In this document: positions 739 through 55,627 of the stretch, piece after piece
Layout of the letters: each line of letters starts with the position of its first letter
Numbering within the stretch: the stretch's first letter is position 1
Assembly (NCBI GenBank): GCA_964017185.1
Contig: OZ024878.1
Coordinates: 16,947,851 to 17,011,850 of the forward strand
Direction: 5' to 3'
Source: Rugalucina vietnamica
Lineage: Eukaryota; Mollusca; Bivalvia; Lucinida; Lucinidae
Length of the DNA stretch: 64,000 nt
The notes under the pieces: model-generated
Told to the model about the DNA's origin: nothing
The model's input: only the letters and a program-made list of their open reading frames with translations
Database searches by the model: none
Position numbers and translations under genes: made by a program

Positions 739-1005
739 TTAAGTCGGGGCCATCTTAGAGTCTGACGCCCGACCCACCGGCGTGCAATTAAAGAAGGCAG
801 CATAGTTATCAACCATGATTGGGTTAAAAACTAAGCATGCAGACTGTCGCATAACATTCAAGTTATAACCTATACGTCTGTAACGTGTTATGATTTTTCT
901 GAACTGAAAAGAAAAATCGTTAATTCCTTTAAGTTTCTTAAATTTGTAAACCAAGTCACCATAAAATTCAGGTTCCGAAAGGCCCTCACTTAAAAGCATC
1001 TTTAA
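739..1005 (-). pseudogene. PLE reverse transcriptase C-terminal fragment
   Basis: This minus-strand coding remnant holds GLSEPEFYGDLVYKFKKL, then RYRRIGYNLNVMRQSACLVF, and ends in NCTPVGRASDS before the stop. All are shared with the longer copy at 33573-34762. An open frame continues upstream to 1224, but that sequence is not element coding and is probably fortuitous. The catalytic part of the RT is missing. It is a 5'-truncated copy, as expected from incomplete target-primed reverse transcription. Confidence 0.6.
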
Positions 1006-1019
1006 TGTTTTATCTTGAA

Positions 1020-2201
1020 ATGATTCCGAGAAATACTCGTGATTTATGCAGAGCAATAGAAATTTTGAGCTTAGGAAGTGAGATGCAGCTGTTATTGACA
1101 ACACTACTAGCCGTTCACATATACGCATAGACATGGGACAACTTTCGACAGACAACATACACATATATCTTCTGTTAGTTGCCCATGATCTGCGAAATGA
1201 TTTCGTAACGTTTTTTTTTCTCATTCATAGTAAGCTGGCCTTTCTGTACCAGAAAGCCAAGGTAATCAAAGGATCACCATTTGTCACATTTGCAGAACAT
1301 GGGCCCCTGATGCTCCAAGCAATGCTTTCAAGACCTCAGCACTTTTGAGAAAATTTCTAAAGATTTTTGCCTGATGGACATCTTGGTCGTCTGACCGGAA
1401 ATATGTCACTGACTTTTATTCTCAGTTTGCAAGGTGGTTCCATTTTTTAATTTTGCATATCTAGTGGTTTTTTATGCATATATGGTTTTATGTTTTATAT
1501 AATGTCGGTCTGATGTAGAACTGCTGATGTCCGAACCATTATGAACATTCAATATTTCCAGTTCACCAGAAAAGATAAAATCTAACAATAACATAAGAAC
1601 GAAAACTGACTTTCCTTATATAAATAATGAAGTCAACTTGGATATAAGAATATATCCCCGGGGTCTGTTCCAATAAAGGAATGCCAGCTATGATTTAGTC
1701 TTACCGACAATAGGTCCCTCTAGTCTCTCGTTGTGGACAAACCGGTGATTGGTTACTTAGTATGTTGCACGTTATTTGAAATAGTCCCTCAGGAAAATTC
1801 ATTGAACGTTTTTCGTGTGTGAATACACATTCCTTCCATTTAGGGCATTTGTCTACATTGCTTCCAAAAGTGTAAGTAAAATGTCATTGTAATCAGCACA
1901 CTATGAATGAAACAAACCATAAACTGCCGAAGTAATCATGTAAAATGCAATTTAAATGTTTCAACCTTTGCAAAATATCGCAAGATCGTTTATTTATTTA
2001 TTTTTTTTTTTAATTCAGTTTTACGTCTTTTTCAAGATTATTTCAGCTCATATGAGACGGGCCAATCAGTAGGTGGGGCGAAAACGGGAGAACCCCGAGA
2101 AAAACCACCTGGCACACCCGCAAGCAGAACTTGGCTTGTCTAGATCGTTTAGGCACCTGATAAGTTATAGATAATCAACTGATTTTTATTTCACGGGGAG
2201 T
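1020..2201. other. Non-coding; diverged segmental-repeat block
   Basis: No gene is seen. The stretch at about 1490-2165 resembles 25190-25720 (CCCCGGGGTCTGTTCCAATA at 1655-1675 recurs near 25341) and weakly 37080-37960 and 50570-50735. About 1250-1400 is a degenerate copy of a mollusc-type tandem repeat (CCCTGATGCTCC.. followed by a CATCTTGGTC box) also present at 21590-21800 and 23550-24660. Confidence 0.55.
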
Positions 2202-3183: not shown

Positions 3184-6100
3184 TTAAGCTCTGCTTAGGG
3201 TGTCTGGAATGATATTATCTCTTCCTCGGATATGTCTGATGTCAAGATTGTGCTCTTGCAACATGAGACTCCACCTGAGTAAACGCTGGTTCTTGTTTTT
3301 CATTTTATGTATGAAAGTCAGTGGATTGTGGTCACTGAAGACAACAATTGGTGCATGTGAAGAAGCTAAGTAAACTTCAAAGTGCTGAAGCGCAAGGATT
3401 AGAGATAGGCATTCTTTCTCTATGGTAGAGTAATTTCTCTGATGCTTGTTAAACTTTTTGGAAAAATAACAAACAGGATGGTCAACACCATTGTCATCTT
3501 CTTGCAACAATACACTGCCTGCACCAACATCACTGGCATCTACAGCCAACTTGAACTCTTTGTCAAAACTTGGTGCTAAGAGAACCGGAGCACCTCTAAG
3601 TATGGCCTTGAGCTTATCAAATGACTTCTGGCAGTCATCTGTCCAAACATACTTGGCCTTCTTACCAAGCAAGTTTGTCAGAGGCTCAGCTATAGCCGAG
3701 AAGTTGTTGCAGAATTTCCTGTAATATCCAGCCATACCCAGAAAGCGCATCAGTTGTCTTTTGCTAGTAGGTACAGGAAAATCTGAGATAGCCTCAACTT
3801 TAGCTTCTACAGGTTTTACCTGACCTTGACCTACAATGTGTCCAAGAAATGTCAAGTTTGCATGGCAAAATTCACTTTTTGCCAAGTTCACAGTTAGTTT
3901 AGCATCACTTAGCTGGTCAAAGAATGTTCTGATTGTCTGCAAGTGTTGTTGCCACTCCTCACTGAAGATAATAGCGTCGTCGATATAGGCTTTACAGCCA
4001 TCCAGATTGGAAATCAAACTGTTGACCAGCCGCTGAAAAGTCGCAGGCGAGTTCTTCATTCCAAATGGCATGACTTTATACTGGTACAGTCCATCTGGTG
4101 TAACAAATGCCGAGATCTCCTTTGCTCTGTCCGTGAGGGGTATGTGCCAAAATCCCTTTAGCAGATCGAACTTTGTAACATACTTGGCATGTCCAATATT
4201 ATCAATGCAGTCATCGATTCGTGGGATGGGAAAAGTGTCTGTTTTAGTGACAGAATTAACTTTTCGATAGTCTGTGCACATTCTAAATGTCCCGTCTGGC
4301 TTTGGTACAAGAATACAAGGAGAACTCCATTCACTTTGGCTGGGTTCAATGAAATCATTGTCCAGCAAATATTGAACTTCTTCCCTGAGATATTGCTGTT
4401 TTACAGGGTTCATTCTGTAAGGATGTTGCTTTACAGGTTTTGAACCTTCAATAATGTCAACATCATGAGAGATTTTGTCAGTTCTGGATGGAATGTCCGG
4501 AAATAAGTGCTCATATTCGAGAACTAACTGTTTCAGTTCAAGTCTTTTGTCTGAATCAAGGTGAGACAGTTTCTGATCAAGATTCTGTAATATGTCAGAA
4601 TTCTGGAGTTTCGATGACGAGGGATCAGATTTCTCCAAGTTGAAGTCCTCAGAGTCCATTTGATTTTGTTCATGAGGGACAGAATTAACTATATTTACTG
4701 ATGAAATAACAGAACTATCCCTATCAATATACTTCTTGAGCATATTAATGTGACATAGCTGTTTTTGCTTGCGCCTCCCAGGAGTGTTAACAATGTAATT
4801 CACGTCACTTAACTTTTTATCAACAGTATACGGGCCATAATATCTAGCTTGTAAAGGTCTGCCAGGAATGGGCAAGAGAGCAAGTACCTTGTCTCCAGGT
4901 TCAAAATTTCTGTCTTTAGCATTTTCATCATAACGAATCTTCATTTTGCTTTGAGCAGATTTGAGATTGGACCGAGCTGCATCACAGGCCTTTGATAGTC
5001 TGTTTTTGAAATCAGACACATACTGAAGTAAGTTCAAAGAACTGTCATCATCTGAGAGAAATTTCTCTTTTAGAAGTTTTAACGGTCCACGTACAGTGTG
5101 CCCAAAAACAAGCTCAAATGGGCTGAACCCCAGAGACTCTTGTACAGATTCTCTTACAGCAAATAGAAGCAAGTGTATGCCTTCATCCCAATCTTTTTCA
5201 GTGTCAAAGCAGTAAGATCTGATCATGTTTTTCAAAGTTTGATGGAATCTTTCTAAGGCACCTTGGCTTTCAGGGTGGTAAGCCGATGACTTGTATTGCT
5301 TAATTCCAAGTTCGTACATAACTTGCTGAAAAATTCCTGACATAAAATTTGAGCCCTGGTCTGACTGGATAGATTTTGGGAGGCCTACAAATGTGAAGAA
5401 CTTCACAAGTGCATTAACTATTGTTTTAGCCTTGATATTTCTGAGTGGGATAGCTTCAGGAAAGCGAGTTGAAGCACACATTATGGTCAGAAGATATTCA
5501 CAACCTTTCTTTGTTTTGGGTAAGGGACCTACACAATCAATAATCACTCTGCTGAAAGGTTCATCAAAGGCAGGAATGGGCTGCAATTGAGCTTTTGGAA
5601 TGGTCTGATTGGGCTTTCCTACCATTTGACAAGTGTGCCAGGATTTGCAATGCTGTGAAACATCAGATTTTAATCCTGGCCAGTAGAAATGATTTAGAAT
5701 CTTGTGATAGGTCTTATTTACACCTAAATGGCCTGACATGGGTGTTTCATGAGCCAAGTTTAAGATTTCAGGGCGATAAACCCTAGGAACCACAATCTGG
5801 TGGTTAACAGTCCACTCATCTGCTGCGGAGACATCCGGAGGACGCCATTTTCTCATCAAAATGCCATTTTTGACATAATAGCAAACAGGAACCTGGGATA
5901 TTTCATTTTCATTAAAAGCCCTTTCAAATAAAGGCGAGATCTCAGGATCAGTGTGTTGTTCTTTACAAAGCTGTGACCTTGACAGCTGGTCATGACCTTG
6001 GTCATTTGAGTTGGAAGGTGAAAGGTCATTTTCTGACCCTGACCTTGGATTGCTAGGGTCAGTCTGAATATCAGACTGACTAGGGGAAAGAGATGTTGAA

Positions 6101-7419
6101 ATCTCTTTATTAAAGGACTGACCTATCAAAGTGTCAGTTAAATTTATGTCCTGCATCCCATCATATAATTTGGCTTTCTTAGCCATTGCCCTAGTAACAG
6201 CACAAGAAGGGTAAAGGTCAGGAATTTCCTGCTCAATGGGATCAGGCGGTTGATCAACACATGGTGTGCTGGTCAAAAGTGGGTTTACCACAACCTTATC
6301 TCCTGCCAAATCATTGCCTAACAGCAAATGAATACCTTTAAAGGGTAAGGAAGGTCTAATACCTACAGCCACGGGACCTTTAACTAAATCTGAGGACAAA
6401 TAGATATTATGGAGCGGTACATTAACAAATCCACACTCTACGCCCTGGATAAGGACACTTGTCCCAGAAGAAGACTTCTCGGAAAATGGCAAGGTATCTG
6501 CCAAGATAAGGGATTGAGAAGCTCCGGTATCTCGTAAGATTTTAATAGGGGTAGACTGGGCAGAGTCACTGTTAAGTGACACAAAACCATCTGATAAGAA
6601 TGGTTCATAAATCTCCATAATAGAATCCTCAGAGACTGACTCTTTACAAGTTCTGGTCAGTATAGGGTTTTCATCCTGGATACAAGACTGTGGTTTAGCC
6701 TTTAAGGAGGTGAGGCCTGTTGGTTTAGCACTATCTAGATTTTCTCTTTCTTTCTTTCGTTTCAGTGCCAAACATTCAGAAATAATGTGGCCAGTTTTCT
6801 TACAACAATTACAAATTGGCTGGGATAAGGGATTTTGTCCTTTGTTTTCACTAGAAAATTTGGGTTTTGGACTGGAATTGTCAGTTGGATTACTGGGATT
6901 GGCTTTGGGACCGGACTGAGGGGAATATGGTTTTGACTGAGGGGTTATTTGCTTTGATTGAGGGTTATATGGTTTCCTAGGATATGGCTTGTTGACAAAT
7001 GAAGCCTTATGAGTCAAAGCATAGTCATCAGCTAAACGTGCTGCTGTTTCCAAGTTTTCAACTTCTCTTTCGTTCAAGAAAGCCTTAACATCAGAATTTA
7101 TGCACCGTTTGAATTCTTCAACAAGCATGAGCTGCCTTAGCTTTGCATGATCAGAACCTACTTTCTTTGAAGAACACCATCTATCAAATAGTTGCTCTTT
7201 TGTTCTAGCAAACTCAACATGAGTCTGGTCATGTTCTTTTCTACAGTCTCTAAATTTCTGTCTGTATGCCTCAGGGACCAGCTCATAAGCCTTAAGAATA
7301 AATTCCTTTACTGTATCATAATCTGAGCTTTGCTCAAGAGAAAGCTGAGTGTAAATTTCTCGAGCTTTACCAATTACAACACTTTGCAAAAGCAAGGTCC
7401 AATGCTCTTTTTTTGCCAT
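3184..7419 (-). CDS. gag-pol: Gag (C-terminal half)-protease-integrase-RT-RNase H polyprotein
   Basis: A 1411-residue open frame. Residues 1-110 are a SCAN/capsid-like helical Gag region. A CCHC zinc knuckle (C-x2-C-x4-H-x4-C, ICNCCKKTGH) lies near 202-215, after a Pro/Ser/Gln-rich linker. The protease motif DTGAS is near 297. Integrase follows: an HHCC zinc-binding region near 555-600, then the catalytic core with D near 625 (IIDCVGPL), D near 688 (SDQGSN) and E near 723. The last two are separated by exactly 35 residues (D35E). A GPY/F-type module (YYGPYTV) comes next. RT spans about 1015-1200 with YIDD near 1145 and PFGMKNSPATFQ. RNase H runs from DASDVGAG near 1291 to SDHNPLTF near 1363 and ends PDTLSRA. 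All catalytic residues are present and there is no internal stop. No envelope gene or chromodomain is seen. The ATG is 9 bp beyond the upstream ORF's stop, in a different frame. Confidence 0.92.
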   Translation of the reverse strand: MAKKEHWTLLLQSVVIGKAREIYTQLSLEQSSDYDTVKEFILKAYELVPEAYRQKFRDCRKEHDQTHVEFARTKEQLFDRWCSSKKVGSDHAKLRQLMLVEEFKRCINSDVKAFLNEREVENLETAARLADDYALTHKASFVNKPYPRKPYNPQSKQITPQSKPYSPQSGPKANPSNPTDNSSPKPKFSSENKGQNPLSQPICNCCKKTGHIISECLALKRKKERENLDSAKPTGLTSLKAKPQSCIQDENPILTRTCKESVSEDSIMEIYEPFLSDGFVSLNSDSAQSTPIKILRDTGASQSLILADTLPFSEKSSSGTSVLIQGVECGFVNVPLHNIYLSSDLVKGPVAVGIRPSLPFKGIHLLLGNDLAGDKVVVNPLLTSTPCVDQPPDPIEQEIPDLYPSCAVTRAMAKKAKLYDGMQDINLTDTLIGQSFNKEISTSLSPSQSDIQTDPSNPRSGSENDLSPSNSNDQGHDQLSRSQLCKEQHTDPEISPLFERAFNENEISQVPVCYYVKNGILMRKWRPPDVSAADEWTVNHQIVVPRVYRPEILNLAHETPMSGHLGVNKTYHKILNHFYWPGLKSDVSQHCKSWHTCQMVGKPNQTIPKAQLQPIPAFDEPFSRVIIDCVGPLPKTKKGCEYLLTIMCASTRFPEAIPLRNIKAKTIVNALVKFFTFVGLPKSIQSDQGSNFMSGIFQQVMYELGIKQYKSSAYHPESQGALERFHQTLKNMIRSYCFDTEKDWDEGIHLLLFAVRESVQESLGFSPFELVFGHTVRGPLKLLKEKFLSDDDSSLNLLQYVSDFKNRLSKACDAARSNLKSAQSKMKIRYDENAKDRNFEPGDKVLALLPIPGRPLQARYYGPYTVDKKLSDVNYIVNTPGRRKQKQLCHINMLKKYIDRDSSVISSVNIVNSVPHEQNQMDSEDFNLEKSDPSSSKLQNSDILQNLDQKLSHLDSDKRLELKQLVLEYEHLFPDIPSRTDKISHDVDIIEGSKPVKQHPYRMNPVKQQYLREEVQYLLDNDFIEPSQSEWSSPCILVPKPDGTFRMCTDYRKVNSVTKTDTFPIPRIDDCIDNIGHAKYVTKFDLLKGFWHIPLTDRAKEISAFVTPDGLYQYKVMPFGMKNSPATFQRLVNSLISNLDGCKAYIDDAIIFSEEWQQHLQTIRTFFDQLSDAKLTVNLAKSEFCHANLTFLGHIVGQGQVKPVEAKVEAISDFPVPTSKRQLMRFLGMAGYYRKFCNNFSAIAEPLTNLLGKKAKYVWTDDCQKSFDKLKAILRGAPVLLAPSFDKEFKLAVDASDVGAGSVLLQEDDNGVDHPVCYFSKKFNKHQRNYSTIEKECLSLILALQHFEVYLASSHAPIVVFSDHNPLTFIHKMKNKNQRLLRWSLMLQEHNLDIRHIRGRDNIIPDTLSRA

Positions 7420-7427
7420 TTCAAGTT

Positions 7428-8189
7428 TTATGCTACCTTCTCAAAATGTAGAAAATATTTATCAACCTCTTTTTCTTGAAATGGAGGAACGAGTCGGATA
7501 TGTTTTGTTACATCAAATATTTTGCTTGTGTCTGAAGATAAAGATTTTGATTTTGATTTTTCATTAAATTCAATTTCTTTGATTCTTAACTGAAATAGCC
7601 TTTCTCTTTCTTTTTCTTCATTTTCAAATCTCAATTTTTCTTTTTCAATTTCGAGCCGTTCTTCTCGTTCTAATTTTTCTTTTTCAAGCCTTTCTTCTCT
7701 TTCTAATTTTTCTTTTTCTAACTCAATTTTTTCTCGTTCTAATTCTCTTTGTTTTTCCTTCTCTCGTTCTTCCATTTCTAACTTTTGTTTATGCATTCTT
7801 TCTTCCCGTTCTAAAGTTTCCAATCTTATTCTTTCTTCCCTTTCGGCCTTTTCTGCCCTTATTCTTTCATCCCGTTCTAAAGTTTCCAACCTTATTCTTT
7901 CTTCATACTCAAATTTTAGTTTTTCCATCTCAATTTGTCTTTTGATTTCTAGTTCCCTCAACTGCAAGTCAGTCTGAGTGACTAGAATCTGAGAAGTAGC
8001 CGAGGAATCAAAAATTTCCTCGTCAACAAAAAACTGAATCAAAATGTTCTTAATTTCATGTTTTAACATGGAAGTCTTGATATTTGACAACCCATAATGA
8101 TCAGCTATGTCTAAGAGGTCACTCTTTTTGGCCTTATCTAACAGCTCCTGAGAAGGCGCAGCAATAAAGTCACTTAGTTTGAATGACAT
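7428..8189 (-). CDS. gag: Gag N-terminal coiled-coil protein
   Basis: 253 residues. The first 60 residues (FKLSDFIAAPSQELLDKAKK...) form a short helical domain. Residues about 75-220 are an unbroken charged coiled coil rich in E, R and K, with repeats of EERIRLETLE type. The end (VPPFQEKEVDKYFLHFEKVA) looks like the start of the capsid-like fold that continues in the next ORF. ORF1 stops at TAA (7430-7428). The next ORF is in another frame and is open back only to a TGA just upstream, so the two frames overlap by about 12 nt. I infer a single ancestral Gag split by a stop codon and a frame change near a run of seven A (7411-7417 region). Programmed shifting or reinitiation is the alternative. 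Confidence 0.8.
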   Translation of the reverse strand: MSFKLSDFIAAPSQELLDKAKKSDLLDIADHYGLSNIKTSMLKHEIKNILIQFFVDEEIFDSSATSQILVTQTDLQLRELEIKRQIEMEKLKFEYEERIRLETLERDERIRAEKAEREERIRLETLEREERMHKQKLEMEEREKEKQRELEREKIELEKEKLEREERLEKEKLEREERLEIEKEKLRFENEEKERERLFQLRIKEIEFNEKSKSKSLSSDTSKIFDVTKHIRLVPPFQEKEVDKYFLHFEKVA

Positions 8190-33572: not shown

Positions 33573-34762
33573 TTTTCTAAAAGGTTTTTGGTTTTGGTCA
33601 ATAAAAAATTCTGGTGGGGTGCTCAGTAAATTGAAGTGTAGAGGGTTCCGTGCGACAAGCTTGTCCACATATGATTTTTCTACACTGTATACAACATTAC
33701 CACATAATCTAATTAAAGAAAAATTTCTGGATTTGATAAAGTGGACCTTCAAAAGGGCATTAAAAAACTATGGTTCACTTTATTTGGCATGTAATGACAG
33801 AAAGGCTTTTTTCACTTCCTCTGACCAAAGTCGGTATACACTTTGGTCATGTCAGAATGTGTGCGACGCCTTGTCCTATCTCCTTGATAATATTTATATT
33901 AGATTTGGGACCAAGTTATACAGACAAATTGTTGGAATTCCGATGGGTACAACTGAATTGCGCACCTCTCGTAGCTGATTTATTTTTATACTGCTACGAA
34001 AGAGATTTCATGGATTCTCTTAATCAAGCTGATGTTATCGAGGCTTTTAATTCCACATCTAGGTACCTCGATGACCTTTTGAACATTGACAACCCTTATT
34101 TTGAAGGTATGGTCAATCAAATTTATCCATCTGAACTACAGTTGATTAAAGCCAATATCTCGGATACCGAAGCCCCCTTTTTAGATCTACATCTTTCTGT
34201 TGCAAATGGATTTGTTTCTTCTAAAATTTATGATAAGCGCGATGACTTTGATTTTGATATAGTAAATTTTCCGTTTTTGGATGGTGACGTTCCTCGTCGT
34301 GCTTCTTATAGTGTAAACATTTCGCAACTTATTAGGTTTGCTAGAGTCTGCAATCATGTTACAGACTTCAACGCTCGAAATAAATCTTTAACGGCCAAAC
34401 TTCTCCAACAGGGCTATCGGTATCATAAACTTCGAAAAACCTTTTCTAAATTTTATCGTAGACACTATGAATTGATTTCCAAATATAATGTTGGGTTAAA
34501 GACGCTTTTAAGTGAGGGTCTTTCGGAACCAGAATTTTATGGTGACTTGGTTTACAAATTTAAGAAACTTATAGGAAGTAATGATTTTTCTTTTCAGTTT
34601 AGAAAAATCATAACACGTTACAGACGTATAGGTTATAACTTGAATGTTATGCGACAGTCTGCATGCTTAGTTTTTAACCCAATCACGGTTGATAACTATG
34701 CTGCCTTCTTTAATTGCACGCCGGTGGGTCGGGCGTCAGACTCTATGATGGCCCCGACTTAA
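33573..34762 (+). pseudogene. PLE reverse transcriptase, longest copy, one frameshift
   Basis: The most complete RT in the window, about 395 codons. Order: SKLKCRGFRATS and STYDFSTLYTTLPHN (first RT motif, like the SLYTNIPH block of Penelope RTs), GIPMGT, then NCAPLVADLFLYCYERDFM, RYLDDLLNIDNPYF (catalytic YLDD), APFLDLHL, SKIYDKRDDFDF, YSVNISQLIRFARVC (the thumb-like region Penelope RTs share) and the end CTPVGRASDS. A 4-bp insertion at about 33953-33956, relative to 32281-32300, breaks the frame between GIPMGT and NCAPL. Nine bp are deleted after DSLN relative to 22236-22606. No GIY-YIG endonuclease follows the RT; the N-terminus is missing. Penelope-like assignment is inferred from motif order. 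Confidence 0.7.
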
Positions 34763-40574: not shown

Positions 40575-41126
40575 TACTGTATTCGTTTCTTCTAAAATTT
40601 ATGATAAGCGCGATGACTTTGATTTTGATATAGTAAATTTTCCGTTTTTGGATGGTGACGTTCCTCGTCGTGCTTCTTATGGTGTATACATTTCGCAACT
40701 TATTAGGTTTGCTAGAGTCTGCAATCATGTTACAGACTTCAACGCTCGAAATAAATCTTTAACGGCCAAACTTCTCCAACAGGGCTATCGGTATCATAAA
40801 CTTCGAAAAACCTTTTCTAAATTTTATCGTAGACACTATGAATTGATTTCCAAATATAATGTTGGGTTAAAGACGCTTTTAAGTGAGGGTCTTTCGGAAC
40901 CAGAATTTTATGGTGACTTGGTTTACAAATTTAAGAAACTTATAGGAAGCAATGATTTTTCTTTTCAGTTTAGAAAAATCATAACACGTTACAGACGTAT
41001 AGGTTATAACTTGAATGTTATGCGACAGTCTGCATGCTTAGTTTTTAACCCAATCACGGTTGATAACTATGCTGCCTTCTTTAATTGCACGCCGGTGGGT
41101 CGGGCGTCAGACTCTATGATGGCCTC
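40575..41126 (+). pseudogene. PLE reverse transcriptase C-terminal fragment
   Basis: Open from VSSKIYDKRDDFDFDIVNF to CTPVGRASDSMMAS, about 185 codons. It is nearly identical to 34213-34762, with differences such as YGVYIS for YSVNIS. The 5' end starts abruptly after TACTGTATTC, so the catalytic domain is missing. Similarity to the 33573 copy implies recent activity of this family. Confidence 0.7.
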
Positions 41127-41758
41127 GACTTTAAGCTATTAATTTTAGTTGGTTGGGGCCGGAGCTTCTTGTCTGTTGCTTGGTCCACCGGGGTCCAACT
41201 GATGTTTTTCTTTAGCTCCGGAGTAAGTAAGTTATTTGGCGCCCAGGGATCTCCATCGTCGGGCAGCTTACTCAATCTGTGAGTCCTGGTTTTTGATTCA
41301 TCAGGATGTTTATCATAATTTATTTGTTTGTTCTTGATGATTCATTTACTAGTTAGAGATTCACCACGAGGACCGAAGAACTAACTAAATGTTATGAACC
41401 ACTGCGGAAGCTGAGGGTGAGGTTACGGCCGTGTAAAATCGATTTAAACCCGCCAGTAACTTTGTGTTACTGATCGTTCCAAGTCGATGCTTCTGTGGTG
41501 GTTCTTTTTGTTTTGTGTCTTGGTGTTTATAATATTTTTGTGCTGTTGGCGCCTTATGTATGTTTGCATATCTTTAGTTAAGTTAAGGTAACTGAGTGGC
41601 CACCTATTGGGAAAATAGCTGCTCATTCGGCTTACGAAATGTTTTCATGGTATTAGTACCTGATTGTTAGTTTGTTTTTTTCCCACCTTGGTTTTTGGAG
41701 TGGGAGTCTTTTTCTGATTGCGCCTTTTCCTGTTCTTTGCCTACTTGTACCTTTTTTC
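41127..41758 (+). mobile_element. PLE 3' tail
   Basis: Complete tail following the RT fragment, same block order as 34763-35385, ending GCCTACTTGTACC. It inserts between segmental blocks c and d of copy 3. Confidence 0.75.
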
Positions 41759-51319: not shown

Positions 51320-51325
51320 TATAAA
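51320..51325. repeat. Target site duplication, left (TATAAA)
   Basis: TATAAA before the left terminus is repeated exactly at 55622-55627 after the right terminus. Six bp is the Polinton/Maverick duplication length. Confidence 0.85.
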
Positions 51326-51339
51326 AGTAGTAATGGTGG

Positions 51340-51466
51340 GCGGTATGGCTCCATTTTCTGAAAACTTATAGCTCCATTTTTATAGCTCCATTTCAGATAA
51401 GCGTAGCGCTAGAAATGGAGCCATAAAAATGGAGCTATAAGTTTTCAGAAAATGGAGCCATACCGC
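51340..51466. repeat. 127-bp hairpin within left TIR
   Basis: GCGGTATGGCTCCATTTTCT.. (51340-51394) pairs with ..AGAAAATGGAGCCATACCGC (51411-51466), leaving a loop of about 16 nt (AGATAAGCGTAGCGCT). Inside the stem TAGCTCCATTTTTATAGCTC repeats the same motif. It is present in the same orientation in the right TIR. Confidence 0.9.
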
Positions 51467-51540
51467 GCACCCTGGGTCTCAGTTTTAATAATGAACTAGC
51501 TAAGTTGCATGTAGGTAAGTATCCTTGAGTTAAGACAAGC

Positions 51541-51790
51541 CTGCACATTTGCACATCTGCTCATCTGCACATCTGCTCATCTGCTCATCTGCACATTTGC
51601 ACATCTGCACTTCTGCACATCTGCACATTTGCACATATGTACATCTGCATATCTGCTCATCTGCACATTTGCACATCTGCTCATCTGCACATCTGCACAT
51701 TTGCACATCTGCACATTTGCACATCTGCACATCTGCACTTCTGCACATCTACACGCCTATGCATCTACACATCTACACGCCTACACATCT
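51541..51790. repeat. 8-bp minisatellite GCACATCT in left TIR
   Basis: About 31 units of GCACATCT with variants GCTCATCT, GCACATTT and GCACTTCT, ending in TACACGCC/TACACATC forms. Because the unit is 8 bp, all three frames stay open and give spurious repetitive ORFs. Confidence 0.9.
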
Positions 51791-51887
51791 TTAGAGACTA
51801 TGAGATAACTGACATAGTCAAGTTTTCTGTTGGTAAGTTCCATTACGAAATTAAGGAAGGGCCTTTTTCCCTCTTGTGTTCCTGGGT

Positions 51888-52449
51888 TATTTGATTTTGC
51901 ATTAGTATCCACATCTACACAAACATAGAAACTTCAAGTAAAATGCCCCTTTGTTTTATTATTATTCACAGATAAGCACAGGTCATTATAACTTTATATA
52001 ACTGAAGTTTTCAAAGATGATTAAAATTTGTGAATGGAAATTTGCATATGGAAATCCATTCTCATATCAAAAGTAAGAAAAGTGTTGCAATTATATTATT
52101 GAATGTAATATTATTTACTTAAATATCACATTTTCTAATTAAAAAGAAATAAATAAACACATTTTGCTTCAATATGTACAGAAAATACAAGTTTTATTAA
52201 TTTTATAGTTGATATAGGGGAACTATGGATATTGGTTTTTCTGAGAAAAGTAGGTTAGCATTTTCAGAAAATTCTAAAACTGAAAGTAGATAATTTTCGG
52301 AAAACGACGCATGAATGGAAATCGACAAAAGGTTTTATGTTTAAATAGTTTGTGTTTCACCTTGTAAATCAAACTGATATATAGCATTTTCAAGAGCTGA
52401 ATTATTCATTCACTCAAGTAATACTGACACATTCTGTACTTCTTCAGAC
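51888..52449. other. Element interior upstream of first gene
   Basis: AT-rich, no ORF. AATACAAGTTTTATTAATTTTATAGTTGATATAG lies within 52183-52218. The stretch just before the ATG may hold the promoter, but no box stands out enough to call. Confidence 0.4.
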
Positions 52450-53310
52450 ATGAAGGATTTTTACATTACATTGCTAAGTGACAGTTCTATGAACATGTTC
52501 CCATCAAATAAACAGTCTGAATTTACTGTAAAATTGGATCATCCTATTAAAATTGACGTGGAAAGCTGGGAGGTTGCCTTGGTTGAAATTGCAACACCAG
52601 CTGAAGTTCTCAACATAACAGAAGAAAACAACTATTTCTTTTTGACTTTCCTAGACCAATCCAGTTTACGCAGAGTTGGAAATCAAAACATCACAGAGAT
52701 ATGTAGCAGTGAAAACGGCTGCTATAACTTCAAACTAACAATTCCAACTGGAAATTATGAGTCACATGAATATCTAGCTGAAGAAATGCAAAACTCCATT
52801 GACAACTTTGAAAAAGGCATACTGAAAAAATTCAATGCTCACATTACTATGACATATGATCATTTGAGACAACGTTTCAAAATATCAGCCCAAAACGAAA
52901 GGTTGGTTAGACTCATATTCCCAAAACCATTTGCTCAAATCTTAGGATTAGATTCATCATTGGTCGAAAAGCCTATAGGAAATGAGGAAAATGTGTTTAA
53001 GTTCAATGCAAAGTTGAATCACAATTTTAGCAACTTCTATGTTTATTCTGACATTGCAAGTTTCACTTTTATTGGTGATACTGTAGCACCTATTTTACGA
53101 GTTGTTCCATTTCAAAGTAAACCAGATTTATATTTCTTCTATAAAGAATTTAAAACTCTGCACTATGTTTCTGTTTCAAAATCTATTGTAGACCAAGTGC
53201 ACATTACATTAAAAACAGAGAATGGTATGACTGTTCCTTTTGTAACAGGCAAAACGATTTTAAAATTACACTTTCGTAGAAAGAAAAAAACTAGTATAAA
53301 TACAATCTAA
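52450..53310 (+). CDS. Penton-like minor capsid protein of Polinton type
   Basis: 286 residues, intact, ATG at 52450 with no earlier in-frame ATG. The N-terminus FYITLLSDSSMNMFPSNKQS, then EFTVKLDHPIKIDVESWEVALVEIATP, has the layout of the Polinton/adintovirus minor capsid (penton, PY-type) proteins. Those start with F(Y/x)(V/I/M)TL.S..S...FP.N....F...L..PI.L...WEV.L.EI. A beta-rich C-terminus ends in a basic tail (LHFRRKKKTS). No signal peptide or membrane segment is visible. The expected role is the pentameric vertex of a virion-like shell. It is first of three co-oriented genes; the major capsid gene is missing. Assignment is from remembered family patterns, not a search. The alternative is an unrelated element-specific protein. 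Confidence 0.6.
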   Translation: MKDFYITLLSDSSMNMFPSNKQSEFTVKLDHPIKIDVESWEVALVEIATPAEVLNITEENNYFFLTFLDQSSLRRVGNQNITEICSSENGCYNFKLTIPTGNYESHEYLAEEMQNSIDNFEKGILKKFNAHITMTYDHLRQRFKISAQNERLVRLIFPKPFAQILGLDSSLVEKPIGNEENVFKFNAKLNHNFSNFYVYSDIASFTFIGDTVAPILRVVPFQSKPDLYFFYKEFKTLHYVSVSKSIVDQVHITLKTENGMTVPFVTGKTILKLHFRRKKKTSINTI

Positions 53311-53350
53311 GAGTTTGTAAATTATCAGTTTTGTACAAAACGCTAAAGAG

Positions 53351-53473
53351 ATGACTTCCTTAGAAGAACAGACAAAACAATCCTGCAAGGCTATGGAGAA
53401 TCTAAGAAAACGCCAGTGGCACAGAAACCGAGTGGATCTCATGCAAGTTATGCACAGATCAGAAACCTTATGA
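53351..53473 (+). CDS. Small basic ORF overlapping the next by ATGA
   Basis: 40 residues from the first ATG after the penton-like gene (TSLEEQTKQSCKAMENLRKR..). It is basic and helical. Its TGA (53471-53473) overlaps the ATG of the following frame (53470-53472) as ATGA, a layout that allows termination-reinitiation. The downstream frame is itself open without ATG from 53347, so the two may be one gene disturbed by a frameshift. Function unknown. Confidence 0.35.
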   Translation: MTSLEEQTKQSCKAMENLRKRQWHRNRVDLMQVMHRSETL

Positions 53474-53673
53474 AAAGGCTGACTACAGCTTTGAATAAAA
53501 GGCTTAGAGAGGGCAGACCATCGAAGTATTGCAGATTCTGTAGGGCTGAACTGCTTTCTATCAGTAAAGAACTGTCAGAGAAAAAGAAGAAAACAACAGC
53601 TAGACGTCAGCGGATTACAAAGAAACCAAATCTGAGAAGAACTAGAACAAAACCAACTCCGGCGATGGTATAA
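53416..53673 (+). CDS. Small lysine/arginine-rich protein
   Basis: Open from 53347 with GTG at 53416; the first in-frame ATG is 53470 (67 residues). It contains ALNKRLREGRPSKYCRFCRA, with a CRFC pair, and a very basic tail (KKKKTTARRQRITKK). High charge suggests nucleic-acid binding, like a virion core protein, but this is inference. It ends 46 bp before the next gene's ATG and is read in the same direction. Confidence 0.5.
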   Translation: MAQKPSGSHASYAQIRNLMKRLTTALNKRLREGRPSKYCRFCRAELLSISKELSEKKKKTTARRQRITKKPNLRRTRTKPTPAMV

Positions 53674-53719
53674 AAAGACATACTCAGGATGAATCTCAGT
53701 ATTCTTCGAATAACCAGCT

Positions 53720-54541
53720 ATGGGTCGATATCAGTGCTATCAGTGTGATCGAGAATTTTCCAGATCATACAACTTGAGAAGACACAAGGACAGTGGTATC
53801 TGCAGAAGTGCTCAGGCTAACATGTTAGACAGTGATGAAGAAAGTGTAATGTCTGAAAGAAGATCACTAGACGATGGAAAAGACATCTTCAGAAAACCTG
53901 ATCTTGAAGATGTAGAAGAAGTCGATGAGGAAGAAGAGGATGAAACTGAAGAAAGTGAGGAAAATGAGGAGGAGGAAGAAGAAGAAGAAGATGATGATGA
54001 GGATGATGATGATGAAGAAGATGAGGATGAGGAAGAGGATGATGATGATGTTGATGATGATGAGGAGGAGGAACCTCAGAAAATAAAACCATGGGATATT
54101 TTGATGGGCATAACGACAGATAAGATGCAAGACACTTTCAACGAAACAGTTGAAAAAGCCCTGCATGAAAATCCTGGCAAAGACGTACAAGATGCTGAAG
54201 AGATAGCATATGATGAACTTAAGCCAAAGTATCTGTCAGAGTTCGTATCCCGCTACAAGTATCTTACTGATCTCTCAGCTGCATTAAGAAAAGATCCAGT
54301 CAACAAGAAAATACAGGAAACAGCTAAACGATTGAGGGATGAAGAAGATTATGACGAGGACGAATCAATACTGTATGCCATCAAGAAACGAAAATTCTTG
54401 ATTGAGAAGAAACTGAACGACTATGACCCACCAAGCTACGAAGTGGCCGAGGAACAGACATTATTGTTGCCACATAAAACACATATGAACATTATTAACC
54501 ATAAACCGAAGAGTAGCTATATTCAGGGGAAACACTTGTAA
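53720..54541 (+). CDS. Acidic zinc-finger protein
   Basis: 273 residues, intact. The N-terminal finger YQCYQCDREFSRSYNLRRH has C6-x2-C9-x12-H22-x5-C28, a C2H2-like finger ending in Cys. Residues about 37-120 are an almost pure Asp/Glu tract, likely an expanded GAA/GAT run at the DNA level. The C-terminal 150 residues are helical and charged (WDILMGITTDKM, DELKPKYLSEFVSRYKYL, AKRLRDEEDYDEDESILYAIKKRK). I recall similar finger proteins beside capsid genes in Polinton-like loci of marine invertebrates but cannot search for them here. A role in DNA binding or virion assembly is a guess. AATAAA follows at 54603. Confidence 0.6.
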   Translation: MGRYQCYQCDREFSRSYNLRRHKDSGICRSAQANMLDSDEESVMSERRSLDDGKDIFRKPDLEDVEEVDEEEEDETEESEENEEEEEEEEDDDEDDDDEEDEDEEEDDDDVDDDEEEEPQKIKPWDILMGITTDKMQDTFNETVEKALHENPGKDVQDAEEIAYDELKPKYLSEFVSRYKYLTDLSAALRKDPVNKKIQETAKRLRDEEDYDEDESILYAIKKRKFLIEKKLNDYDPPSYEVAEEQTLLLPHKTHMNIINHKPKSSYIQGKHL

Positions 54542-54544
54542 ACG

Positions 54545-55011
54545 AGAACAGAGGGACGGTCCTAATCCTCTGTTTCATCGTGCATTCATAGTAAGCGGGA
54601 CAAATAAAAAATGTTGAAAATGTTAAAGTCAGTCTTGGGTTTTCATTTCTCCTCTCAGGAGGTAGTAGTAAAGGTTTTAAAGTTTGACAATAACTAGATG
54701 AGTTTTTGACACTTATCAATGTTCTCGAGATACGAGAACATTGAAAAGCCTCAATATATTAGGAAGACGCTATAAAGTTATGCCTTTTGACTAGTTGAGA
54801 TCTTGAGATACAAGACCAAGAGACAGTGAAACGCATACCACTTTAAAGCCTCTAAGGAAGCTATAGAGTCATGCCTCTAATAGAGTTGAAGTCTTGAGAT
54901 ACAAGACTGAGATACTCTTCAGACGCATTCAGCTGTATAGCAACATAAACTTCTACATACCCACACAACTGTCCCAGACAAGTCCAACAAGTGTCACAAT
55001 GTAACAAGTCT
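54545..55011. other. Element interior downstream of last gene
   Basis: Non-coding. AATAAAAAATG at 54603 is a plausible polyadenylation signal for the gene cluster. GAGATACAAGAC near 54796 and 54896 is a short direct repeat with similar flanks (AAGCCTC..GAAG.C.ATA), so part of 54720-54910 is duplicated at about 100-bp spacing. Confidence 0.5.
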
Positions 55012-55621
55012 ACCCAGGAACACAAGAGGGAAAAAGGCCCTTTCTTAATTTCGTAATGGAACTTACCAACAGAAAACTTGACTATGTCAGTTATCTTATA
55101 GTCTCTAAAGATGTGTAGGCGTGTAGATGTGTAGATGCATAGGCGTGTAGATGTGCAGAAGTGCAGATGTTGAGAAGTGCAGATGTGCAGATGTGCAAAT
55201 GTGCAGATGTGCAGATGTGCAAATGTGCAGATGTGCAGATGTGCAGATGAGCAGATGTGCAGATGTGCACATGTGCAGATGTGCAAATGTGCAGATGTGC
55301 AGAAGTGCAGATGTGCAAATGTGCAAATGTGCAGATGAGCAGATGTGCAGATGAGCAGATGAGCAGATGTGCAGATGAGCAGATGAGCAGATGTGCAAAT
55401 GTGCAGGCTTGTCTTAACTCAAGGATACTTACCTACATGCAACTTAGCTAGTTCATTATTAAAACTGAGACCCAGGGTGCGCGGTATGGCTCCATTTTCT
55501 GAAAACTTATAGCTCCATTTTTATGGCTCCATTTCTAGCGCTACGCTTATCTGAAATGGAGCCATAAAAATGGAGCTATAAGTTTTCAGAAAATGGAGCC
55601 ATACCGCCCACCATTACTACT
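55012..55621 (-). repeat. Right terminal inverted repeat, 610 bp
   Basis: Inverse of 51326-51887. It contains the 8-bp array as AGATGTGC (55109-55407, about 37 units) and the hairpin at 55480-55606. It ends ATTACTACT and is followed by TATAAA. Confidence 0.92.
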
Positions 55622-55627
55622 TATAAA
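55622..55627. repeat. Target site duplication, right (TATAAA)
   Basis: Exact repeat of 51320-51325. Confidence 0.85.

Follow-up and report, generated by a model that had tools for sequence, protein, structure and literature searches.

A 64,000-nt stretch of the genome of the lucinid bivalve Rugalucina vietnamica (GenBank assembly GCA_964017185.1, contig OZ024878.1, positions 16,947,851 to 17,011,850 of the forward strand; hereafter the window) carries a 4,296-bp mobile element, at window positions 51326-55621, that is probably a helper-dependent satellite of an 18.4-kb Polinton. The initial annotation had described it as a miniature element with Polinton-type ends and target-site duplication, which our analysis supports, and had raised a satellite as one of its explanations, which is the one we favour.

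The element starts with AGTAGTAATGG and finishes with CCATTACTACT. Its AG..CT ends, the exact 6-bp TATAAA duplication on either side of this 4.3-kb unit and its long terminal inverted repeats (TIRs; 562 and 610 bp) are those of Polinton/Maverick elements, and all were confirmed (Table 1). In each TIR, the outermost of three parts is a terminal palindrome, followed by an array of 8-bp tandem repeats and, innermost, by unique sequence; the difference between 562 and 610 bp lies in the arrays.

Three co-oriented coding regions lie on the + strand. Judged by its predicted structure, the first is a penton gene: the model (predicted local distance difference test, pLDDT, 85) had as its top structural matches the pentons of mavirus, Sputnik, adenovirus and PBCV-1, so that fold comparison bore out the penton-like protein of the initial annotation and settled a question left by sequence-profile searches, since Pfam, PHROGs and PDB sequence searches had returned nothing useful. 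The third gene encodes a 273-residue protein with an N-terminal C2H2 finger (23.3 bits in Pfam, slightly below the cut-off) followed by an acidic run; its model is poor (pLDDT 52.6), with a C-terminus predicted to be helical. Between them, a gene for a basic protein was open in all ten sister copies compared (100-123 codons; ∼104 residues from the ATG where there is one), while its frame is broken near 53397 in the window copy. Of the three open reading frames (ORFs) thought intact, the penton and zinc-finger frames are so and the basic frame is not; likewise, of the 'capsid-type genes' announced in the plural, the capsid type is shown for the penton only. As the same annotation held, no replication genes were found: there was no PolB gene among the ORFs of 51326-55621 (the three main ones scanned with Pfam) and no rve integrase gene in the same list and scan. 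Nor was there a further long ORF, or a Pfam match in the three main ones, for a major capsid protein (MCP), ATPase or protease.

The element is one of many dispersed copies. We searched the 1.09-Gb genome (47 contigs) and obtained 314 exact matches to the end motif AGTAGTAATGGNNNNCRSTMTRG, compared with none for the reversed control. From 33 stretches fetched around TIR matches, together with the window copy, we examined 34 loci (L015 and L016 are one place, L017 and L018 overlap, and some loci are partial). In 21 elements, the two ends could be placed by end patterns; 19 of these elements had an exact 6-bp duplication, all 19 different, and L010 had one mismatch and L022 three. The motif matches and the exact duplications together argue that the ends are not due to chance. 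Most copies are ∼4-5 kb long and colinear with window 51785-55105 at about 92-94% identity, and wherever the genes are present the order penton, basic, zinc finger is constant. The interiors of 18 copies were on average 96.2% identical (94.4-99.0%), which points to one recent expansion. The further copies and full-length relatives that had been anticipated thus exist, and the TIR is not unique to the window. We considered whether copies of 70-89% protein identity were old relics and rejected this for L055-L060, the six that were read: their DNA is 93-97% identical, and they simply carry frameshifts or stop codons. Two loci have unusual structures: L019 has a single left end and two successive right ends (4594 and 6017), both followed by the GGTCTA of the left flank, and in L040 (3037-6910) ∼3.9 kb of other DNA, probably a later insertion, splits the small-type penton gene.

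The 18.4-kb Polinton is likely to be the helper of the small element. When the 100 ends listed on C1-C4 were paired by eye, 30 pairs resulted and 40 ends were left over. Seven pairs enclose PolB and a helper-type penton (five of 18.37-18.51 kb, and two of 47 and 57 kb that probably hold nested insertions), 17 enclose a small-type penton without PolB, and six enclose neither PolB nor penton, three of these being only 40-60 bp long. No pair among the 30 contained both PolB/helper-type penton and a small-type penton. One helper, C1:2097034-2115405, flanked on either side by GAGAGT, was read in three separate pieces (8,673 of 18,372 bp). These pieces encode an integrase (rve plus chromo domains), the penton, a predicted core protein and, one gene downstream of the penton, a predicted MCP; the protease gave a weak adenain match below the Pfam cut-off. 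The predicted MCP had no useful PDB match by sequence, and we name it from its place relative to the penton gene. Polinton MCP genes are placed one gene downstream of the penton in the literature (PMC4028283). With PolB, the rve and chromo integrase, the penton beside the predicted MCP and the weak adenain match, the resident helper is a Polinton.

The helper and the small element share their ends. The terminal 212 bp are 93-95% identical, and the 489-bp noncoding block at window 54536-55024 is 94.5% identical; elsewhere in the helper pieces, the only matches were internal repeats of these shared stretches and a weak one, at the DNA level, within the penton gene. Neither the tandem arrays nor the left noncoding region matched the helper sequence that was read, and a total of 46,639 bp from PolB loci and helper pieces (L042-L054) gave no match to the zinc-finger or basic protein. 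In contrast to the ends, the small-type and helper pentons are 49.8% identical, which argues that no simple or very recent deletion turned the resident full-length relative into the small element; the 'very recent deletion' that had been offered as an alternative is therefore not borne out for that relative. Instead, the comparison indicates that the small element is a separate lineage with borrowed ends.

The genomic distribution of the two pentons shows the same separation. Because only part of the candidates was scored (136 of 286 for the penton, giving 138 matches, and 86 of 155 for PolB, giving 111 matches that were reduced to 56 loci), the counts are lower bounds. The scored penton matches fall into 105 at 70-100% identity (small-type) and 33 at 46-51% (helper-type), with no unbroken match at 52-82% among the 138. 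All 105 small-type matches are more than 20 kb from the 56 PolB loci, the nearest at 177 kb, whereas 31 of the 33 helper-type pentons lie within 12.8 kb of one. Among full-length scored pentons, 38 of 66 small-type and 22 of 32 helper-type genes are without an inner stop, and 57 and 26, respectively, have at most one (some of those stops being the natural stop). The small-type penton frames are hence not the random degraded stretches that the initial annotation had allowed for.

In a tree of 33 pentons, the small-type pentons, P0001 and eight database pentons of 69-73% identity to that of the window copy form one clade (100/99), and the helper penton belongs to another (99/100); P0007, P0011 and P0012 (58-66%) fall outside both, without a resolved position. 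The 69-73% relatives are mostly full length and include clusters of 212 and 79 member sequences, and the zinc-finger match list includes a cluster of 342 members at 66%. Eight contigs (e.g. those of 6,919 and 470,916), paired by size alone, are apparently common to the penton and zinc-finger lists, and in P0131 a basic stretch resembling that of the small element, as judged by eye, precedes the finger in one frame. One helper-clade penton, P0019, is filed under a Candidatus Thiodiazotropha metagenome-assembled genome; its 3,005-nt contig is probably animal host DNA in a symbiont bin.

These relatives bear on the idea that the small-type penton comes from a second autonomous Polinton lineage, lost or unseen here and alive elsewhere, of which the small element would be the ordinary non-autonomous form. 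The protein does belong to the Polinton PX/penton family, and its clade has database members, compared as proteins only. Yet none of the 105 scored copies is near PolB, and the ends match those of the resident helper, which makes this origin unlikely.

The terminal palindromes bear on how the small element is copied. Of 42 ends, 40 could be delimited, and these fold into hairpins, mostly of ∼140 nt with 72-86% of bases paired. We tested covariation in the 16 copies of standard palindrome length, leaving out five elements with other palindromes: 99.4% of cells pair, and both sides have changed in 24 of 59 pairs. Cells changed on both sides numbered 95; shuffles gave 27.6, and slid structures no more than 5. 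In the weakest measure, further pair types, the count was 36 against 31.2, and 11 of 500 shuffles reached 36. Taken alone, this covariation may come from templating of one arm on the other and not from selection. Over the first 60 nt, the ends of a single copy are 98.6% identical, and those of different copies 79.7% (up to 100%). Hairpins of different copies are 74.8% identical, with no correlation to the interiors (Mantel r -0.02, p 0.51, n 18). Identity to the helper hairpin reaches 99.3% in L020 and 97.3% in the window copy, compared with 56-90% in other copies, and 2 of the 34 loci (L014 and L033) have a helper-type TIR junction without the tandem array. Since the ends are alike within copies and vary independently of the interiors, it seems that one end of a molecule serves as template for the other and that ends also pass between elements, including the helper. 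Such a pattern would be expected if a common pool of displaced strands, self-complementary at their ends, were being copied. There was no sign of parvovirus-like flip/flop: the loop orientation, compared by eye, was the same in most ends. In three places (C1:27982202-27982248, C1:49853053-49853112 and C1:81854034-81854073), two ends face each other 40-60 bp apart; these are solo palindromes, perhaps left by aborted copying or excision as end products.

Rearranged copies speak for extrachromosomal copying. L014 (8,546 bp, with one duplication, ATCATG) is an integrated inverted dimer. Of 3,109 aligned bases in its interior arms, 3,103 are the same, with nine gap columns; a cut at the midpoint gives 99.6% and 1,848 gap columns, since ∼0.9 kb of other DNA is present in the left arm near L014:961-1881. 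The arms join in a 218-bp palindrome that aligns unbroken with the helper right end (125-126 nt at 93%) and matches the window copy only in pieces flanking the tandem array. L034 (2.24 kb) is a left-left palindrome (99.4%, 175 gap columns), and an extra inverted right end is present in L013, L015/L016 and L024. Palindromic ends, a size of 4.3 kb and an inverted dimer joined at the hairpin recall parvoviruses and their self-complementary telomeres, and could be read as an independent small virus replicating by a rolling hairpin. However, none of the three proteins matches a Rep/NS1 or helicase in Pfam or PHROGs, and the 6-bp duplications and shared ends point to a Polinton integrase; we disfavour such a virus and regard it as extremely improbable. 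The repeats of bidnaviruses form no such hairpins (PMC4061559).

To what extent are the genes maintained? The ratio of mean nonsynonymous to mean synonymous divergence (dN/dS), taken pairwise, was 0.40 for the penton (18 copies), 0.37 for the basic gene (24) and 0.49 for the zinc-finger gene (20). For normalised per-column ratios (N/S), one half of the dimer was dropped and 4, 5 and 14 multi-step variants, in the same gene order, were left out. Penton variants present in two or more copies gave 0.36 (11 synonymous, 12 nonsynonymous, p 0.013), and variants unique to one of six broken pentons gave 0.86. Near-neutral decay after insertion, with some constraint on the source copies, would fit these sequence data, if weakly.

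Several observations weigh against a helper-dependent satellite. Shared variants in the basic and zinc-finger genes gave N/S of 0.43 (p 0.14) and 0.85 (p 0.38); single-copy variants gave 0.70 (p 0.11), 0.69 (p 0.19) and 0.60 (p 0.0084) for penton, basic and zinc finger; and shared and single variants did not differ significantly (Fisher p 0.21, 0.72 and 0.44). Selection on the genes within this genome is thus weakly shown, and a recent burst carrying passenger genes could account for the data. Two copies of 2.0-2.2 kb, L012 and L034, have duplications and no genes, so the genes are dispensable in cis. The 8,673 of 18,372 bp come from a single helper, the remainder of which may hold a zinc-finger gene; P0007, P0011 and P0012 were compared as proteins only; and both small element and helper are known here from genomic DNA alone. 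Finally, no relative was found in IMG/VR (by protein, alignment A1 or TIR motif) or in a scan of GTDB genomes, sets that may omit records of this genome.

Much of this would suit a chimeric deletion derivative, one that arose when a Polinton from a different lineage shed its replication genes, acquired helper ends by recombination and spread in one burst with idle passenger genes. The copies form one recent family, mostly colinear with the window copy, single-copy variants are near neutral, and L012 and L034 inserted with none of the three genes. Against it stand the constraint on shared penton variants, the large clusters of 69-73% penton relatives in the database when no unbroken match of that kind occurs among the 138 scored here, and the eight contigs, one of only 6,919, in both the penton and zinc-finger lists. 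We consider this derivation doubtful. The excess of a divergent penton (66 full-length small-type against 32 helper-type among scored matches) might instead suggest a host-serving antiviral module, whose decoy penton would poison the assembly of the helper, in the way that virophages protect hosts; but the copies, with their insertion duplications, have the look of a selfish burst, and any benefit to the host may equally be one to the element. We find such a module improbable.

If the small element is a helper-dependent satellite, the helper integrase would insert it in trans, and the helper PolB, to go by the shared and exchanged ends, would copy it as an extrachromosomal linear molecule. Folding of terminal hairpins on displaced single strands would keep both ends of one molecule alike, permit end swaps with co-replicating helpers and occasionally prime an inverted dimer. 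Most speculatively, the helper may supply capsid shell, packaging ATPase and protease; the satellite penton may enter the capsid vertices or compete for them, giving satellite DNA an advantage in packaging or delivery; and the basic and zinc-finger proteins may bind or recruit the small genome. As a tentative proposal, which we put forward with less than even confidence, this could be the first satellite of a Polinton of cellular genomes, taking copying, integration and shell from its helper, occupying vertices with its own penton and exchanging self-complementary hairpin telomeres with it, whereby ends and gene cassettes would evolve separately.

Polintons are regarded as viruses since they encode capsids; few if any particles of classical Polintons are known. 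A satellite retaining just the penton from the capsid set would, if our interpretation is right, indirectly indicate that Polintons make capsids and that these matter, and Polintons would gain their own counterpart of virophages. Covarying, swappable hairpin ends would also give access to the way in which Polinton ends are copied.

Table 1. Features of the small element and its flanks (window coordinates).
Feature	Position	Strand	Basis
Left target-site duplication, TATAAA	51320..51325		Sequence, end placement
Left terminal inverted repeat, 562 bp	51326..51887	+	Sequence comparison
Outer 212 bp of TIR, 93-95% identical to helper ends	51326..51537		Alignment
Left terminal palindrome, near-perfect hairpin	51335..51471		DNA fold of 51327-51475: -69 kcal/mol, z -19.8
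8-bp tandem array, TGCACATC type, inside left TIR	51541..51790		Repeat comparison
Penton gene (minor capsid, Polinton PX-type, by predicted fold), 286 aa, intact	52450..53310	+	ORF, fold search
Basic protein gene, frame broken in window copy	53352..53673	+	Sister-copy comparison
C2H2 zinc-finger/acidic/C-terminal predicted-helical protein gene, 273 aa, intact	53720..54541	+	ORF, Pfam, poor model
Right-end noncoding block, 94.5% identical to right end of 18.4-kb helper	54536..55024		Alignment
Right terminal inverted repeat, 610 bp	55012..55621	-	Sequence comparison
8-bp tandem array inside right TIR	55157..55406		Repeat comparison
Right terminal palindrome	55476..55612		Repeat comparison, fold
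Right target-site duplication, TATAAA	55622..55627		Sequence, end placement

Elsewhere in the window, positions 3184-7419 (-) and 7428-8189 (-) hold an element of the long terminal repeat type with an intact 1,411-residue Gag-Pol-like ORF, which has a SCAN match at its start and an integrase (544-896) upstream of reverse transcriptase and RNase H (1038-1389), an unusual order, which is that of Gmr1-like Ty3/Gypsy elements. Three ORFs, at 739-1224 (-), 33770-34762 (+) and 40648-41142 (+), share a C-terminal stretch ending near GRASDS; the 330-residue member of this trio had no Pfam match.

Among the literature matches listed, titles and abstract beginnings mentioned no Polinton satellite and no miniature Polinton with capsid genes, Repbase Reports and most subscription papers being outside this scope. 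Non-autonomous Polintons may be listed in Repbase. With Polintons/Mavericks (polintoviruses; adintoviruses), the small element shares AG..CT ends, the 6-bp duplication, a long TIR and a PX-type penton. It differs in its length of 4.3 kb, compared with 15-20 kb (PMC4028283), in the additional tandem arrays within the TIR and in the genes that were looked for and not found, namely those for PolB, integrase, ATPase, protease and the major capsid protein. It resembles the virophages mavirus and Sputnik in its penton fold, its proposed dependence on a larger DNA virus and, for mavirus, genome integration. Virophages, however, encode their own major capsid protein, protease and ATPase, whereas only a penton was found in the small element, and its proposed helper is a Polinton rather than a giant virus. 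Transpovirons and capsid-hijacking phage satellites such as P4 and SaPI likewise have small genomes with their own ends and ride on a helper, and P4-type satellites bring capsid-modifying proteins; here the likeness would be one of mechanism by analogy only. Non-autonomous DNA transposons, including miniature inverted-repeat transposable elements, offer the remaining parallel, in a presumed spread in trans with borrowed ends and in the 40-60-bp and 2-kb gene-less forms that this family has as well; unlike such elements, the small element keeps intact, divergent coding genes.

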